Shown here piece after piece: positions 29,329 to 39,243 of a stretch of 39,243 nt of DNA. The DNA lies in contig DYJK01000020.1 of assembly GCA_020723165.1 (NCBI GenBank), forward strand, positions 1 through 39,243, written 5' to 3'. Under the pieces are notes generated by a model that worked only from the letters and a program-made list of their open reading frames with translations, was not told the DNA's origin and made no database searches. The number at the start of each line of letters is the position of its first letter. The first letter of the stretch is position 1. Source of the DNA: Melioribacter roseus (GTDB taxonomy: Bacteria; Bacteroidota; Ignavibacteria; Ignavibacteriales; Melioribacteraceae). Position numbers and translations under genes: made by a program.

Positions 29329-30252
29329 ATGCAATTATTTGGCAATAAATATCACAAGATTATTCATGGTGAGGCAATCGAAGCTCTTACAAGTGAAGTT
29401 AAAGACGCTTCTATTGATTTGATATTTATTGACCCTCCGTATAATATTGGTAAGAACTTTAATGGACATAAAGACAGATGGGAAAATGATTCTGATTATT
29501 TAGATTGGTCTTACACCTGGTTGAAGTTGTGTATAAAAAAACTTAAACCAAACGGAAGTTTGTATGTAATGACTTCAACACAGTTCATGCCGTACTTTGA
29601 CCTTTTTTTAAGAGATAAAATTAATGTTCTTTCACGTTTAGTTTGGTACTATGATAGTTCGGGTGTTCAAGCTAAAAATTATTATGGTTCTCTTTATGAA
29701 CCGATCTTATTTTGTGTAAAAGACAAAAACAACTATACATTTAATGCTGATGATGTCTCTGTTGATGCTAGAACCGGTGCAGAGCGCAAATTAATTGATT
29801 ATCGTAAAAACCCTCCACAAATTTATAACTCAAAGAAAGTCCCGGGTAATGTATGGGAATTTCCACGTGTAAGATATAGAATGGACGAGTACGAGAATCA
29901 TCCGACACAAAAACCAATCGCTTTGCTTGAAAGAATAATTAAAGCAAGCTCAAATCCAGGTGATACTGTTCTGGATCCATTTTCTGGGAGTTTTACTACC
30001 GCTTTTGTTGCTCAACAACTCCAGCGTAAATCAATTTCTATAGAACTCCAAGAAGATTATATTAAAATTGGATTAAGAAGATTAAACATTGCAGATGAAT
30101 ATAAAGGTGAAAAGTTAGTTAAAGAATTAAAAACTTACGAAGAACTTAAAATAAATAAAGAACAACTCATTTTATTCGAAAAAAATGATGAACCATATCT
30201 TCACAGAAAGAATAAAAAAAGTACTCGGAAGAAACTTCCCCAAGCGAAGTGA
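29329..30252 (+). CDS. YhdJ-like N6-adenine DNA methyltransferase
   Basis: A 307-residue beta-class methyltransferase closely resembling E. coli YhdJ. It has DPPYNIGKNF (Asp35 start of the catalytic motif), WYYDSSGVQAKNYYGS, DYRKNPPQ, KVPGNVWEFPRVRY, NHPTQKP and DPFSGSFTT (from Asp216). YhdJ methylates ATGCAT, so that target is the best guess here, by family. The C-terminal 40 residues are Lys-rich and extend past the YhdJ end. Its last 68 bases overlap the next gene, a probable restriction enzyme. Together they form a type II restriction-modification pair. No clear ribosome binding site is seen. Confidence 0.93.
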   Translation: MQLFGNKYHKIIHGEAIEALTSEVKDASIDLIFIDPPYNIGKNFNGHKDRWENDSDYLDWSYTWLKLCIKKLKPNGSLYVMTSTQFMPYFDLFLRDKINVLSRLVWYYDSSGVQAKNYYGSLYEPILFCVKDKNNYTFNADDVSVDARTGAERKLIDYRKNPPQIYNSKKVPGNVWEFPRVRYRMDEYENHPTQKPIALLERIIKASSNPGDTVLDPFSGSFTTAFVAQQLQRKSISIELQEDYIKIGLRRLNIADEYKGEKLVKELKTYEELKINKEQLILFEKNDEPYLHRKNKKSTRKKLPQAK

Positions 30253-31294
30253 AGAAGTATTTAACCGAAGTGAACTTCTTCAGTATATTAACTTTAAGAC
30301 TAAATCTGCTAACAGAGGTTCTAAGGCAAGGTCAAGTTTCGCAAATTTATATGCTATTTATGTTCTCATTGAAGATTATGTTGAAAATGGATTTGATCGA
30401 AAGTCAGGCTACTCAAATTACAAGGGAGCGGAGTATTCAAAACTTTTTTCAAGACAACGTGAGTTACCCTTTGGGAGAAAACTTCAAAACCACGCATTAA
30501 ATAATCGAATGAATTCGGAATTTCAAAAATATTTTCCAAATTCTGATTACATACCCATACTACGCAACCTTGAAACAAATCGCTATTGGATCAATGAAAA
30601 TTTAATGAAGATTAAAATCAATGGCACTAAATACAATATTGCAAAGCCAGTATTAGAAATAATAGAAGATTACATGCTGGCAAAAAAAGAATCTTTTAAT
30701 AGATTCATAAAAGACTGTATAAAAATTCAAAAAATTGAAAAAGCAAACACATCAAAAGCAATCCAATTTGTTAAAGAATTAATTCAACCCAATGTTGATG
30801 CAAGGCTATTTGAGATTGTCAGTTTTTCTATATTGAAAAGTTATTATAAAAATCAAAAAATTTACTGGGGTTTTGAAAAGACAAAAATCAATGAAGATCG
30901 TTTACTTTTATTCAAGACTGGAAGAACAAATGCTAATGATGGAGGCATTGATTTTGTCATGAAACCGTTAGGAAGATTTTTCCAGGTTACTGAAACACTT
31001 GATGTTAAGAAGTATTTTTTAGATATCGACAAAATAGAGCGCTATCCTATAACGTTTGTTATTAAGTCTGAACTCCCGGAGAATGAAATACGTACCCAAT
31101 TAAAAATAAACGCGTTAAAAAAATTCTCAGTTAAGTCAGTAGTTGATAAGTATATGAATTCTATTGAAGAAATAATTAATGTAACAAAGTTGCTAGAGAG
31201 ATTTACACAAGCTGTAAAAACGGGACTGCTATCAGAAATACTTCAAGAAATAATAAAACATAGTAAAGTAGAATTTAATTATACGAAAGGATGA
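30185..31294 (+). CDS. putative type II restriction endonuclease
   Basis: A 369-residue protein overlapping the methyltransferase gene by 68 bases and starting ATGATG. Its position and size fit a cognate restriction enzyme. A PD-(D/E)xK-like core may be at NDGGIDF (Asp256) followed by RFFQVTE (Gln267). In the usual Asp...(Glu/Gln)-x-Lys pattern a Lys would stand where Thr269 is, so the active site is either variant or not this segment. A downstream DVKKYF offers other lysines. AT-rich and unrelated in style to its neighbours, the pair was probably acquired. Activity and specificity (ATGCAT by association) are unproven. Confidence 0.65.
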   Translation: MMNHIFTERIKKVLGRNFPKRSEEVFNRSELLQYINFKTKSANRGSKARSSFANLYAIYVLIEDYVENGFDRKSGYSNYKGAEYSKLFSRQRELPFGRKLQNHALNNRMNSEFQKYFPNSDYIPILRNLETNRYWINENLMKIKINGTKYNIAKPVLEIIEDYMLAKKESFNRFIKDCIKIQKIEKANTSKAIQFVKELIQPNVDARLFEIVSFSILKSYYKNQKIYWGFEKTKINEDRLLLFKTGRTNANDGGIDFVMKPLGRFFQVTETLDVKKYFLDIDKIERYPITFVIKSELPENEIRTQLKINALKKFSVKSVVDKYMNSIEEIINVTKLLERFTQAVKTGLLSEILQEIIKHSKVEFNYTKG

Positions 31295-32875: not shown

Positions 32876-35800
32876 TTATTCAAAAGCCTTCTTAATTATT
32901 TCTTGTTGTGAAATTGTAAACAATTTTGATGAACCGCTTGCCGGGCTTGGGCTTTCAGGTCTTCCTACATAATTAAGTTTTTGTTTCCCGGATTTTAATT
33001 CATTCAGCTTAGGTGATAAGAAGTTCCAAGCACCCATGTTGCGTGGTTCCTCTTGAACCCAAATTAAAGATTTGAAATTTTTATACTCATCCAAATATTT
33101 TTTCAATAGCTCACTTTTGAATGGGTAATATTGTTCAATTCTGATTATTGCCGCATCTTTAATATTATTTATTTCTCTATGATTATTCAGCTCGTAATAA
33201 ATTTTGCCGCTTGTTAAAATTACTTTTTGTACACCGTCTTTATTTTTCACGGTGTCGTCGTTTATAATTTCCCGGAATGATTGATCGGTGAAATCATTTA
33301 TTGGAGATCGTGCAGCCGGCAAACGGAGTAAGCTTTTAGGTGTAAATATCACCAAAGGTTTTTCATCGTTTTGAATTGCTTGTCTTCTTAATAGATGGAA
33401 ATACTGTGCCGGGGTTGTTGGATTACACACATACATATTTTCTTCTGCACATAAAATCAAAAATCTTTCAATTCTTGCACTGCTGTGTTCTGGCCCCTGG
33501 CCTTCATGTCCGTGGGGAAGAAGTAGAACAAGTCCGTTCGGTAATTGCCATTTTGTTTTTGATGCTGCAATAAAATTATCGATTATAACTTGCGCACTAT
33601 TTGCAAAGTCACCGAATTGTGCTTCCCATAAAACCAATGCAAGCGGATCAGCAATGCTGTATCCAAATTCAAAACCGAGAACCGCAGCTTCTGAAAGCAA
33701 ACTATCCAATGCTTCGATCTTTGCCTGGTTTTCCTGAATAAAATTGTGTGGAAGAATTTCAGTCTCATCGTTCATGTCTGTAAAAATTAAATGCCGCTGT
33801 GAAAATGTTCCGCGTGCACTGTCTTGTCCGCTTAAACGAATTGGTCGCCCGTCAATCAAGAGTGTACCAAATGCAAGTGATTCAGCAAATGCCCAGTCTA
33901 TTCTTGCATTCCCGGTGAGGAATTCTTTTCTCTTTGAAATATGCTTTTGAAGTTTTGAGTTCAACGTGAAGTTATCCGGGAATCGTGTAATTCCTTTAAC
34001 AACAGTTGAAAGTTTTTCTAAAGTAACTTTTAGATCGATACTTCTTTTAGATTGTTCATAAAATTCTGTAGAGTATGCGAGGGGACGATCGGGTCTAAAT
34101 TTATCGGTTTTCTTCTTTGTGTTTTTCAGCGCATTATCTAATCTTGTATTTATTTCATTATCAAGTTTATCAACTTCAACCCCGGTTAATACTTTTGATT
34201 TTATCAATTGATCCTGGTAAATCTGTTTTACTGGGGGATGTGTTTTAATTTTCTTATACATCAGCGGTTGAGTATAAACCGGGTCGTCACCTTCATTATG
34301 CCCGTGTCTGCGGTAACCGAGAAGATCGATAACAACATCTTTTTTAAATTTTTGGCGGTACTCGTATGCAAGTTGAGTCACCCAAACAGATGCGTCGGGA
34401 TCGTCACCATTTACATGGAAGATAGGCGATTGGACCATTTTAGCAACATCGGTTGCATAAGGTGATGAACGGGCATCTTCAGGGTTGGTTGTGAATCCTA
34501 TCTGGTTATTTACAATTATGTGTACAGTGCCGCCGGTACTATATCCTTTTAATTGTGAGAGGTTCAATGTCTCGGCGACAATACCTTGTCCGGCAAATGC
34601 TGCATCTCCATGAATTAAAACCGGCAAGTATTTATTTTTTTCTGTATCGTTGTTCCGTGTTTGTTTAGCACGTGCTATTCCTTCAACTACCGGGTTTACC
34701 CACTCTAAATGGCTTGGATTAGAGGCGACTGAAACTTTTATTTCTTTTCCGTTTTGTGTTTTAAAGTAACCGGAAGCACCAAGATGATATTTAACATCAC
34801 CGGTTCCCTGGGGTGAATCAGGGTCTATATCTTCTTCGAATTCTGAAAATATTTTTTCGTAACTCTTGCCGATAATATTTGAAAGAACATTTAATCTACC
34901 TCTGTGCGCCATACCAAGTAATATTTCTTTTACATTGTCTTCAACTGCGAGACTGAGCAACCGGTCTAAAACCGGGATTAATGTTTCCGATCCTTCCAAA
35001 GAAAATCTTTTATGCCCTACAAATCTTGTATGAAGAAAATGTTCGAATGCTTCGGCAACTACAAGCATGTTCATAATCCGCTTTCTCTGATCAACAGAAA
35101 ATTCCGGTTTATTCCGGATTGGTTCCATCTTCTTTTGCAGCCAAAGTTTTTCTCCCGGGTTTTGGATATGCATATATTCAATACCTATCTTTTCACAATA
35201 AGTCTCATGCAGCAAGTTTAAAATTTCGCGTAGTGTGCCGGTCTGCATTCCTTGTAAGTTGCCGGTGATAAATAATCGGTCGTAATCCCAGATAGTGAAC
35301 CCGTGATTTGCCGGGTCTAATTCCTGGTTATATGTTTTGGGCGGACTAAGCGGGTTCAAATCTGCAATTAAATGTCCACGAACCCGGAACATATTAATCA
35401 ACAAAACAATTCTGGCTTGCTTCTCTATTTCCTCTATGTTTTCAATTTTTGCAAACCGTTTTGATAATGTATCAAGATCCCAACCGACAGCTTTTTGTGA
35501 AATCTGTAGATCGTCAAAAATCGAATCGTAAAAATTTTTTTCTCCAAGTAGAAGTCGATCCACGTGAGCTAAAAATTCTCCCGACTCTGCACCTTGAATG
35601 ATTCTATGATCGTAAGTGCTTGTTATGTTCATAACTTTACCAATACCAAAAGACGCAAGTGCAGATTCATGCATTGCTTTGAATTCCGCCGGGTAGTCGA
35701 TTGATCCGATTGCGATAATACATCCTTGCCCGGTCATTAAACGAGGGGTAGACGAGACTGTCCCTAATCCGCCCGGGTTGGTGAGCGTTACAGTTGTTCC

Positions 35801-36505
35801 TTGAAAATCTGACGGTTCAAGTTTTCCGCTTCTCGATTTTTCGATTAACAAATTATAAGCATCTAAAAATTCCTGGAAGTTCATCAAGCCGGCACGCTTA
35901 ATATTCGGAACAATCAAAGAGCGCGATCCGTCTTTCCGTTCAATATCCACAGCAATTCCGAGATTCACGTACGGCTTTTTAATTAAACTAGGTTTGTTGT
36001 TCACAATACCAAAGGAATTATTGATGTTGGGAAAATTTTTTACAGCTTTAACTATTGCGTATGCAACAATATGAGTAAAGGAGATTTTTCCGTTGCCGGT
36101 TCTTTTTAAATGCTGGTTGATAATTCTTCGATTTTCTTCAAGCAGTTTCACAGAAATCGTTCTCAGTGAAGTAGCAGTAGGAATTGAGAGACTGTTGGTC
36201 ATGTTCTCAATAATTTTTGCACCTACTCCGGCTATGGTAATAACTTCATCGGAAAATGATATATCAAATGTATTTGATAGAACAGTTTTTTTATCAATAC
36301 TTTTTGAAGGGGATGATTTATCGGTCTCGTGTTTCTTTGTACCATTGTTCTTAGAAGTTAAATTATCAAAATAGTTTTTCCAGTAATCCGATACTGAATT
36401 CCGGTCTTCGAAATACTTATCGAGTAGATCGGAAACAAAACCAAAATTATATCCAAAATGATTGAATAACTCTTTATGGTATTTATTAATTGTTTTGTTT
36501 TCCAT
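32876..36505 (-). CDS. kgd: fused 2-oxoglutarate dehydrogenase E2/E1 (KGD-like)
   Basis: A 1209-residue protein. After a short N-terminal segment like the OdhA/KGD N-terminus, residues about 100-330 form an E2 acyltransferase catalytic domain with the STYDHRIIQGAESGEF active-site motif, and no lipoyl domain is seen. The rest is a full 2-oxoglutarate dehydrogenase E1: LLGMAHRGRLNVL, HGDAAFAGQG, GDDPDASV for thiamine diphosphate, and the C-terminal transketolase-like pyrimidine-binding part. This E2-E1 order is that of mycobacterial KGD/corynebacterial OdhA. It oxidises or decarboxylates 2-oxoglutarate in the TCA cycle. Its stop is six bases from the convergent M23 gene. Confidence 0.93.
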   Translation of the reverse strand: MENKTINKYHKELFNHFGYNFGFVSDLLDKYFEDRNSVSDYWKNYFDNLTSKNNGTKKHETDKSSPSKSIDKKTVLSNTFDISFSDEVITIAGVGAKIIENMTNSLSIPTATSLRTISVKLLEENRRIINQHLKRTGNGKISFTHIVAYAIVKAVKNFPNINNSFGIVNNKPSLIKKPYVNLGIAVDIERKDGSRSLIVPNIKRAGLMNFQEFLDAYNLLIEKSRSGKLEPSDFQGTTVTLTNPGGLGTVSSTPRLMTGQGCIIAIGSIDYPAEFKAMHESALASFGIGKVMNITSTYDHRIIQGAESGEFLAHVDRLLLGEKNFYDSIFDDLQISQKAVGWDLDTLSKRFAKIENIEEIEKQARIVLLINMFRVRGHLIADLNPLSPPKTYNQELDPANHGFTIWDYDRLFITGNLQGMQTGTLREILNLLHETYCEKIGIEYMHIQNPGEKLWLQKKMEPIRNKPEFSVDQRKRIMNMLVVAEAFEHFLHTRFVGHKRFSLEGSETLIPVLDRLLSLAVEDNVKEILLGMAHRGRLNVLSNIIGKSYEKIFSEFEEDIDPDSPQGTGDVKYHLGASGYFKTQNGKEIKVSVASNPSHLEWVNPVVEGIARAKQTRNNDTEKNKYLPVLIHGDAAFAGQGIVAETLNLSQLKGYSTGGTVHIIVNNQIGFTTNPEDARSSPYATDVAKMVQSPIFHVNGDDPDASVWVTQLAYEYRQKFKKDVVIDLLGYRRHGHNEGDDPVYTQPLMYKKIKTHPPVKQIYQDQLIKSKVLTGVEVDKLDNEINTRLDNALKNTKKKTDKFRPDRPLAYSTEFYEQSKRSIDLKVTLEKLSTVVKGITRFPDNFTLNSKLQKHISKRKEFLTGNARIDWAFAESLAFGTLLIDGRPIRLSGQDSARGTFSQRHLIFTDMNDETEILPHNFIQENQAKIEALDSLLSEAAVLGFEFGYSIADPLALVLWEAQFGDFANSAQVIIDNFIAASKTKWQLPNGLVLLLPHGHEGQGPEHSSARIERFLILCAEENMYVCNPTTPAQYFHLLRRQAIQNDEKPLVIFTPKSLLRLPAARSPINDFTDQSFREIINDDTVKNKDGVQKVILTSGKIYYELNNHREINNIKDAAIIRIEQYYPFKSELLKKYLDEYKNFKSLIWVQEEPRNMGAWNFLSPKLNELKSGKQKLNYVGRPESPSPASGSSKLFTISQQEIIKKAFE

Positions 36506-37081: not shown

Positions 37082-37249
37082 ATGAAAGCTGAATGCCCCG
37101 TATGCGGTGCATCAATAGATCTTCCGGAAGGGACAGTAGCCGGAGAATTATTAGAATGTCCCGATTGCGGAACCGAATTAGAAGTTACCTCGCTTGAACC
37201 GCCTACTTTGTCCGAGGCTCCTCAAGAAGAAGAAGATTGGGGACAGTAA
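37082..37249 (+). CDS. lysW: LysW amino-group carrier protein, ends in Gln
   Basis: A 55-residue protein. A zinc ribbon is formed by Cys5, Cys8, Cys26 and Cys29 (CPVCG and CPDCG). The acidic tail ends EEEDWGQ. LysW carries the intermediates of lysine synthesis from alpha-aminoadipate: in Thermus and Sulfolobus the amino group is joined by LysX to the side-chain carboxyl of the C-terminal Glu of EDWGE. Here the last residue is encoded by CAG (Gln), which lacks that carboxyl. GGAG precedes the ATG. The homocitrate synthase gene starts one base after the stop, and lysX follows, so the identity as LysW is strong. Confidence 0.92.
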   Translation: MKAECPVCGASIDLPEGTVAGELLECPDCGTELEVTSLEPPTLSEAPQEEEDWGQ

Positions 37250-37250
37250 A

Positions 37251-38408
37251 TTGGTCTGGGTATTAGATTCAACATTACGAGAGGGAGAGCAGACACCCGG
37301 CGTATATTTTGACAAACACATTAAACTCGCTATTGCAAATCTTCTTAACGAAGTCGGTATTGATATTATCGAAGCCGGTCACCCGATGGTTACTCAAGAA
37401 ATCCACTCAGCAGTAAAATCTATTGCGCAGAAAGATTTCAAATCGATAGTTGGTGCCCACTCACGCTCTCTTAAATCCGATGTCGATCTGGCATTGGAGT
37501 GCAGTGTTGGATTCCTTGGAATTTTTTATTGTGTTTCTGAAGAGAGATTAAACACAGTATTTAAAAAAGATCTTGATGCTGCTATTCAACAGATAACCGA
37601 TGTAATTAAGTATGCAAAATCACAAAACCCGAAATTGCTTATTCGTTACACACCTGAAGATACGGTACGCTCACAATTTGAAAATGTTGTTAAAGCTGCA
37701 GTAGCCGCGGTAGAAGCCGGGGCAGATATTATCAGCGTTGCCGATACAACCGGTTATATGGTAACCGGCACCCAGCGTAATATGTATGATTATATCTCAC
37801 GTCTTAAATCTGAATTTGATAAAAGAAATTTAAAACCAAAAATTGCTGTACATTGTCATAATGATAGGGGCTTGGCTTTAGCAAACGCACTCGACGCATA
37901 CCGCGGTGGTGCAGAGATTATCGATGCAACTGTACTTGGTTTAGGCGAGCGGGCCGGGATTGTTGATTTAGCAGAATTGCTTGTTGTTCTTACTGTTGAT
38001 TATGGAATTCAAAAATGGAATTTGCAGAAACTTACCGAGCTTTATGAATTAGTAAGTAAACATTCAGGGATACCGATCCCAGCTAATTACCCGGTAACCG
38101 GTAAAAATGCATTTACACATTGTGCCGGCGTACATACTCATGCAGCATCAATAAACCCGATGCACTACGAAAGTTTAAATCCTGAAATTTTAGGGCGCGA
38201 AAGAAATTTTGCACTCGATCATATGTCGGGTATCGCATCACTACGTTATGCATTAAAGCTAATTAATGAAGAAGACCTTGATGAAGATATTCAGCAAGAT
38301 GTTTTAAAAGAAGTTAAAGCTGTTGGACAGCGCGGTAGAACTGTTGACCTTGCCGAACTTAAACATATCGTTGATGCTGTGAAGCATCACCAGACATACA
38401 CTAAGTGA
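37251..38408 (+). CDS. homocitrate synthase (lysine pathway)
   Basis: A 385-residue DRE-TIM metallolyase. DSTLREGEQTPGV at the N-terminus, VADTTGYM, HCHNDRG with the metal-binding histidines and GLGERAG are those of homocitrate synthase/isopropylmalate synthase, without the C-terminal regulatory domain of LeuA. Next to lysW and lysX it should condense acetyl-CoA with 2-oxoglutarate to homocitrate, the first step of the alpha-aminoadipate route. The start is taken as TTG at 37251, directly after the lysW stop, because the reading frame upstream overlaps lysW and has no family match. That arrangement suggests translational coupling. Confidence 0.92.
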   Translation: MVWVLDSTLREGEQTPGVYFDKHIKLAIANLLNEVGIDIIEAGHPMVTQEIHSAVKSIAQKDFKSIVGAHSRSLKSDVDLALECSVGFLGIFYCVSEERLNTVFKKDLDAAIQQITDVIKYAKSQNPKLLIRYTPEDTVRSQFENVVKAAVAAVEAGADIISVADTTGYMVTGTQRNMYDYISRLKSEFDKRNLKPKIAVHCHNDRGLALANALDAYRGGAEIIDATVLGLGERAGIVDLAELLVVLTVDYGIQKWNLQKLTELYELVSKHSGIPIPANYPVTGKNAFTHCAGVHTHAASINPMHYESLNPEILGRERNFALDHMSGIASLRYALKLINEEDLDEDIQQDVLKEVKAVGQRGRTVDLAELKHIVDAVKHHQTYTK

Positions 38409-38456: not shown

Positions 38457-39243
38457 ATGAAAATAGGTTTGCTTCATTCTTTGATAAGAAAAGATGAAAA
38501 ATTGTTAATTGATGAATTCTATAAAATTAAAGGTGTTGATCTGGTCATGGTTGATGACCGTGAAATCACGTTCAGTTTAGGTAAAGATAAATTTGAACTT
38601 GATGTTGTTGTTGAAAGATGTATCAACCATTCCAGGGCACTGCATGGATTGAAATTATTTGAGTCTGCCGGTGTGAAATGTGTTAATACCTATAGTGTAG
38701 CAACTATATGCGGCGATAAATTATTGACATCTGTTGCATTAGCAGAGAACAAAGTTCCGCAGCCGGAAGTTAGGGTTGCATTTACAGAAGAGAGTGCGCT
38801 CAAAGCAATTGAAGAGATGGGATACCCGGTCGTACTGAAACCGGCTGTCGGTTCATGGGGCAGACTGCTTTCAAAAATTAACGATCGTGATGCTGCCGAA
38901 GCAATTCTTGAACATAAAACTGTTCTCGGTTCTTATCATCATTCAATTTTTTATATACAAAAATATGTTGAAAAAAGCGGAAGAGATATCCGCTCATTTG
39001 TTGTTGGCGATAAATGTATTGCTGCTATTTATAGAACTTCTCCCCACTGGATAACTAACACAGCACGCGGCGGAATGGCAACAAACTGCCCGATAACCGA
39101 TGAACTTAACGAGATATCAGTTGATGCTGCACGAGCTGTGGGCGGCGGAATAGTTGCGATAGATGTGTTTGAAACTGAAAAAGGTTTGATGGTTAACGAA
39201 GTTAACTATACAATGGAATATAAAAACAGTGTTACAACTACCG
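38457..39243 (+). CDS. lysX: LysX, LysW-aminoadipate ligase (partial, runs off the window)
   Basis: At least 262 residues of an ATP-grasp ligase of the RimK/LysX type; full members have about 280, so only the last residues are missing. Visible features are [16 protein letters not shown] (ATP-grasp glycine/Lys segment), [13 protein letters not shown], a nucleotide-binding TARGGMATN, and the C-terminal [15 protein letters not shown], which is the LysX-type specificity region. It joins alpha-aminoadipate to LysW. GGAG sits about ten bases before the ATG. With lysW and homocitrate synthase it forms the start of a lysine operon. Confidence 0.93.

Follow-up and report, generated by a model that had tools for sequence, protein, structure and literature searches.

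In lysine synthesis on the carrier protein LysW, the release of lysine is attributed to the hydrolase LysK. The amino group of aminoadipate is linked to the gamma-carboxyl group of the C-terminal Glu of LysW, and LysK is homologous to ArgE (as stated in passages of PMC10433800). In Caldithrix abyssi, LysWXZYJ and Hcs are encoded in one locus and the other steps are scattered (from a section of PMC5317091). EgtC cleaves glutamic acid off an intermediate of ergothioneine synthesis (a passage in PMC11993508). In some actinobacteria, the small protein Pup is encoded with a C-terminal Gln, which Dop deamidates to Glu, and PafA performs the ligation; Dop also removes Pup from proteins by cleaving the isopeptide bond (both in excerpts of PMC8599861). 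Among the open-access papers listed by the searches, none dealt with a Gln-ending LysW or with LysW operons containing a class II amidohydrolase; none of seven papers from one search mentioned LysW and 'glutamine amidotransferase' together, and passages of PMC7311316 do not address the question.

The window, i.e., the whole stretch of 39,243 nucleotides analysed here, is one entire contig that ends within lysX. On its forward strand lies lysW (37082-37249), encoding an amino-group carrier protein of 55 aa which scored 74.2 bits against TIGR01206 (cut-off 53.2), 66.9 bits against Pfam PF21344 (gathering 27), and 67.5 bits against the archaeal LysW/ArgW family NF041070, below its cut-off of 75. 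The protein has two CxxC pairs, CPVC and CPDC, predicted to be zinc ligands. Its tail reads EEEDWGQ: the last codon, CAG (37244-37246), which is followed by the stop TAA (37247-37249), encodes Gln where known LysW proteins have Glu, so that the C-terminal Glu which bears the substrate on its gamma-carboxyl group is absent as encoded. Translation and profiles thus agree with an earlier sequence-only reading, which had reported an EDWGQ end with a clean stop and lysX in place. No second LysW, e.g., one with Glu, was found in the genome at E<=10. When compared to the LysW/ArgW carriers of Thermus, Sulfolobus, Thermococcus and haloarchaea, the locus shares the profile, the four cysteines, the EDWG tail and the partners lysX, lysY, lysZ and lysJ, but differs in the last residue and in bearing, instead of lysK, another hydrolase gene described below.

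The gene next to lysW (37251-38408, forward strand) is homocitrate-synthase-like and was assigned to lysS by its best match to TIGR02146 (351.2 bits, below the cut-off of 413.55), by matches to PF00682 and PF22617, and by conserved gene order. It likely starts with a TTG one base past the lysW stop, ATG being absent nearby; the sequence TTGGTCTGGGT directly after the stop (window region 37249-37251) is common to several relatives. The first 262 codons of lysX occupy 38457-39243 (forward strand, up to the window end) and scored 332.3 bits against TIGR02144 (cut-off 275.6); a profile search places LysX among the RimK-like ATP-grasp ligases. Contig C183 of the same genome shares 55 bases with the window end, thereby giving a joined LysX of 282 aa, and supplies the rest of lysX followed by lysY, a gene of 214 codons, lysZ and lysJ. 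There is no lysK in this operon (window plus C183). The 214-aa product encoded between lysY and lysZ resembles EgtC-like class II amidohydrolases (N-terminal Cys); we denote it GAT, which serves as a label only. Upstream of lysW, the reverse strand bears an ORF of 1209 residues (32876-36505) in which a 2-oxoacid dehydrogenase acyltransferase (E2) domain is fused to 2-oxoglutarate dehydrogenase E1, an arrangement known from the actinobacterial enzyme KGD/OdhA. Farther upstream, two overlapping forward ORFs (29329-31294), the first with a DPPY motif, resemble by eye a DNA methyltransferase and a partner nuclease.

To see how the Gln tail is distributed, we used a set of 97 related genomes, including that of the window (G000). 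LysW was found in 34 of them: eight tails end in EDWGQ (G000, G004, G010, G013, G026, G032, G037, G046), 23 in EDWGE, and three are altered (EDWDE in G019, EDWDD in G033, decayed in G053). Only Glu and Gln occur as the last residue in genomes that have the operon. A tree of 30 operons requires at least five changes between the two residues (a quick search, with 6 of the 27 inner branches open), and both tails occur within one genus in two cases (G000/G001 and G013/G051). G077 stands outside the tree; an all-frame search showed its full operon with Glu. The three LysW-like sequences with altered tails (L062, L063, L064) look like relics of pathway loss: GAT is absent from their genomes, and an all-frame search of 12-19 kb around each revealed no lysS or lysX; all that remains is lysJ in G019 and, in G053, lysJ with a fragment of lysZ, while G033 retains nothing. 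G042, of the same genus as G019 and G053, keeps a full operon.

When 84,980 species were scanned, EEDWGQ followed by a stop was found in 86 stretches, 80 of which were listed. Among these 80 matches, 70 are LysW-Q loci (LysW ending in Gln), six of them from the set of relatives, and they belong to about ten phylum-level groups: 32 Gammaproteobacteria, 11 Bacteroidetes/Ignavibacteria, 9 Acidobacteria, 5 CPR bacteria, 3 Calditrichota, 3 Gemmatimonadetes, 3 Chloroflexi, 2 KSB1, 1 Desulfosarcina and 1 Sumerlaeia. The tally was made by hand from record names, which can be wrong for metagenome-assembled genomes; L130, for instance, is named Bacteroidetes and has a LysW nearly the same as that of KSB1 L089. 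Ten of the 80 listed stretches were not counted (four TGG read-throughs, four short frames, the 7-residue contig-edge fragment L144, and L098, which has no cysteines), while L084, L101, L138 and L150, each lacking a cysteine or truncated at the edge of a contig, were counted by their flanking sequence. Gln is encoded by CAG in 43 and by CAA in 27 of the 70 listed loci. Within one gammaproteobacterial order, 21 of 41 genomes matched EEDWG-any-stop, and all 21 have CAG (20 were confirmed as LysW by two CxxC; L194 starts at a contig edge); at least eight of them are also among the 70 scan loci, and the remaining 20 genomes gave no pattern match, so other tails are possible there. Gln seems to be fixed in at least one gammaproteobacterial order. 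No lysS was seen beside the gammaproteobacterial LysW-Q operons. In L127 and L129 (Chloroflexi, Thermoflexus), the LysW-Q/LysX pair is not followed by lysY, lysZ or lysJ; in L127, genes resembling by eye a glycosyltransferase and a membrane protein come next, and LysW is possibly used outside lysine synthesis in these two.

The Gln tail is therefore real and recurrent. The sequence-only reading had left room for a wrong base; the recurrence of Gln in 8 of the 34 LysW-bearing genomes of the set, in 70 of the 80 listed scan stretches and in every one of the 21 matching genomes from a single order rules out a sequencing error, and the alignment of relatives which that reading called for shows that by no means all end in Glu. 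The Gln-ending variant of LysW is also widespread and not peculiar to this organism. Selection at the DNA level for the next gene was considered as a source of the C for G exchange and rejected on inspection: GGGGA precedes the changed base in the last codon of lysW, and in the gammaproteobacterial loci the GTG start of lysX overlaps CAG-TGA; GTG would overlap GAG-TGA equally, so that neither feature explains the change.

The GAT of the window genome starts with MCRLLY. It scored 30.8 bits against Pfam PF13230 (GATase_4, gathering 23) and only 52.1 bits against the EgtC equivalog TIGR03442 (cut-off 218.65), and its ortholog in G013, which is 67% identical, gave 35.7 and 54.7 bits, respectively; with a TIGR03442 score so far below the cut-off, family membership does not reveal the substrate. 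An AlphaFold2 model (pLDDT 94.9) has EgtC as its best PDB match (TM 0.81; Z 26.1, 1.8 Å over 201 residues), and Z values for the EgtC, GlmS and PurF domains range from 21 to 26 for this predicted model. GAT is thus predicted to have an EgtC-type class II/Ntn hydrolase fold. All 19 GAT sequences compared, which come from many phyla, have C2, R3, H73, R75, S76, N101 and G102, and we take these to be the class II catalytic residues (Cys2, Arg, the Asn-Gly oxyanion site). With EgtC (PDB 4zfj, 4zfk, 4zfl), GAT shares the predicted fold, Cys2, Arg-Ser and Asn-Gly; unlike EgtC, it is encoded in a lysine operon, and the identity over the structural alignment is 17%. In a weak sequence alignment with EgtC, the Asp of the EgtC motif TVDSAIL faces Gly116, invariant in 19 of 19 GAT (the EgtC row alone was used, the GlmS alignment being unreliable at the Asp helix). 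Class II enzymes hold the free alpha-amino group of the substrate with that Asp. Its replacement by Gly may hint at a substrate that is the C-terminal residue of a protein, which has no free alpha-amino group.

Among the relatives, the order lysW-lysS-lysX-lysY-GAT-lysZ-lysJ is the same in genomes with Gln and with Glu wherever readable. The six Gln loci read through have no extra gene from lysW to lysJ, and neither has the window's genome; the only one within an operon was found in G049, a Glu genome. An amidase gene beyond the window, as the sequence-only reading had proposed to look for, does exist in the form of this class II amidohydrolase, but it is shared with the Glu relatives and is not special to the Gln genomes. 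GAT is present in 31 of the 97 genomes, 30 of which are among the 34 with LysW and one among the 63 others. In this last genome, G038, a contig begins some 2.3 kb from GAT, and its lysW may therefore be cut off. LysW without GAT occurs in G055 (80% complete, with lysW near a contig end) and in the three altered-tail genomes. None of the 97 genomes has a LysK over the TIGR01902 cut-off, weaker M20 matches being common. A LysK elsewhere in the window's genome was also considered and rejected: the best M20 match reaches 101.2 bits (cut-off 163.1) at a different locus, on contig C95, with no lysine genes adjoining, and its neighbours by eye resemble what we take to be a ygeW/ygeY-type cluster.

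Genome-wide searches of 50 LysW-Q genomes revealed GAT in 46 and LysK over the cut-off in three. Two of the four genomes without GAT have LysK (G117 and G120), and in the other two (G105 and G107) neither enzyme reaches the cut-off; in G120, LysW-Q adjoins lysS, lysX, lysY and lysZ. G116 is the sole genome among those tested for both enzymes that has both. The contig bearing its GAT shows no lysine genes over the 9 kb that were read, and the genes after its LysW-Q/LysX pair match none of LysY, LysZ and LysJ, so this LysW-Q may serve another purpose. The four GAT-less genomes and G116 show that the link between Gln and GAT is not absolute. Of the 20 LysW-Q loci outside these genome-wide searches, 16 have GAT in the fetched locus, and the last four match relatives (G032, G026, G046, G004), all with GAT, which brings the total to 66 of the 70 LysW-Q loci listed. 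One locus with both LysW-Q and GAT, L113, belongs to a named strain, Stygiobacter electus.

As a contrast, 400 Chloroflexota genomes were searched, of which 113 match EEDWG[E/Q]-stop: 112 with Glu, and the centre of the set, G116, with Gln. LysW was confirmed by two CxxC in the 30 of these 113 with a fetched locus; the rest were accepted on the DNA pattern. In the first 80 of the 112 Glu genomes (G116 being left out), LysK exceeded the cut-off in 79, and in the remaining one it is split between two contigs; there was no real GAT in these 80, only one 27-bit match. Consecutive EEDWGE-stop matches, mostly 190-250 bases apart, were observed in several Chloroflexota genomes (two in G384, G264, G352, G280, G420 and G232, three in G198, and two, 55 bases apart, in G200), which suggests tandem lysW copies. 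Taken together, the results show that, in nearly all genomes tested, GAT occurs together with LysW and to the exclusion of LysK, and that Gln tails are almost wholly on the GAT side, being rare without it (4 of 50). GAT and LysK thus seem to be two alternative enzymes for the release step. The choice between them is a lineage-level trait, so because of shared ancestry the genome counts are not independent, and the combination of a Glu tail with GAT was seen only in the Ignavibacteria group, the sole one where it was looked for.

These data led us to the following model. LysW would be made with a C-terminal Gln, whose side-chain amide would be hydrolysed to Glu, most likely by the GAT of the same operon; LysX would then charge the matured carrier as usual, with aminoadipate on the gamma-carboxyl group. 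At the end of the pathway, GAT would act in place of the metallo-hydrolase LysK and cleave the gamma-glutamyl amide of LysW-lysine. A C-terminal Gln is itself a gamma-glutamyl amide, the simplest of all, so that this enzyme could also prime LysW-Q; if it acts on both amides, Glu and Gln should be able to replace one another as the last residue of LysW in any genome with GAT, which is what we observed. A single enzyme also predicts no extra gene in Gln operons, an unchanged LysX motif, switching between Glu and Gln, and rarity of Gln with LysK. We infer both chemical steps, and consider it probable that GAT matures LysW-Q and replaces LysK.

Several other explanations have to be weighed. That the last residue matters follows from the argW E54A mutant of Natrinema gari, which was unable to make arginine (a passage in PMC10433800), and one might on this ground regard a Gln-ending carrier as dead, or the base as wrong. 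At least 70 listed loci, 21 of 21 matching genomes in one order and an intact operon speak against this, as do the three lost or reduced operons, where the tails decay to residues other than Gln; we give this explanation practically no weight. Attachment of the substrate to the alpha-carboxyl of the terminal Gln, one of the options of the sequence-only reading, or use of Gln as it is, would suit the membership of LysX in the RimK-like ATP-grasp ligases, but is not supported by the LysX sequences. The GSWGR motif, which recognises EDWGE, is invariant in 29 of 29 LysX, eight of them from Gln genomes. When the columns of six operon proteins were compared between Gln and Glu genomes against 60 label shuffles, the best columns tracking the residue in LysS, LysX, LysZ and LysJ were within the shuffle range. 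LysY column 206 (p 4.7e-4 vs. a shuffle minimum of 1.4e-3) and GAT column 28 (p 2.6e-4 vs. 3.7e-4) were slightly beyond it; neither fully separates the two groups, and because the shuffles scored only the commonest residue per column, while the real labels scored every residue and follow the tree, we make nothing of them. Repeated switching between Glu and Gln would, moreover, require repeated changes of chemistry, and GAT resembles a hydrolase of gamma-glutamyl amides. Attachment to the alpha-carboxyl, or use of Gln as it is, thus appears very improbable.

The remaining alternatives concern the role of GAT itself. Class II enzymes form a gamma-glutamyl thioester, for which Gln would be a ready donor, and GAT might, via its Cys2, swap the Gln amide for the amino group of aminoadipate by transpeptidation, without LysX and ATP. 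We find this improbable, because lysX is kept in the Gln operons of all eight Gln relatives with GSWGR intact, and Glu and Gln genomes have the same operon genes. A more serious objection is that GAT is only a LysK substitute, releasing lysine or ornithine, and that Gln is deamidated by a side activity of LysX, by an unlinked amidase or spontaneously. In its favour, Glu genomes also have GAT, whose main role can therefore not be priming, and 4 of 50 Gln genomes lack GAT, two of them having LysK; the rarity of Gln without GAT and the absence of any further gene from the lysW-lysJ interval compared in six Gln loci count against it, and we regard it as unlikely. Deamidation of Gln after synthesis, also named by the sequence-only reading, is the best supported of its options and would most probably be the work of GAT.

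Maturation of LysW-Q by GAT resembles the PupQ/Dop system in that a small protein is encoded with a C-terminal Gln and the linkage is made to the gamma-carboxylate, and the deamidating and de-conjugating activities which Dop unites in one enzyme (according to passages of PMC8599861) are here proposed for GAT. The enzymes are nevertheless unrelated: Dop is glutamine-synthetase-like and uses ATP, forming an active-site phosphate (same source), whereas GAT looks like an Ntn hydrolase, showing no likeness to glutamine synthetase but matching a class II amidotransferase profile and the EgtC, GlmS and PurF structures. In addition, Pup becomes attached to proteins, whereas LysW carries a metabolite. 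With the LysK/ArgE-type M20 metallo-hydrolases (TIGR01902), GAT would have in common the release of lysine from LysW, although the families are unrelated. On balance, we favour a second, unrelated system of the Pup/Dop kind, in which LysW-Q, nearly always found with an Ntn hydrolase of the EgtC kind, would be acted upon twice by this enzyme, Glu and Gln being freely exchanged.

If this is true, the missing last step of LysW-type lysine/ornithine synthesis would be filled where no LysK is present, i.e., in Ignavibacteria, Calditrichota, many Gammaproteobacteria, Acidobacteria and CPR bacteria, by an enzyme family with no earlier link to LysW-type synthesis in the open-access papers searched. 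A C-terminal Glu could no longer be regarded as obligatory for LysW, and the use of an encoded C-terminal Gln would represent a convergent parallel to PupQ/Dop that has arisen from a different fold.
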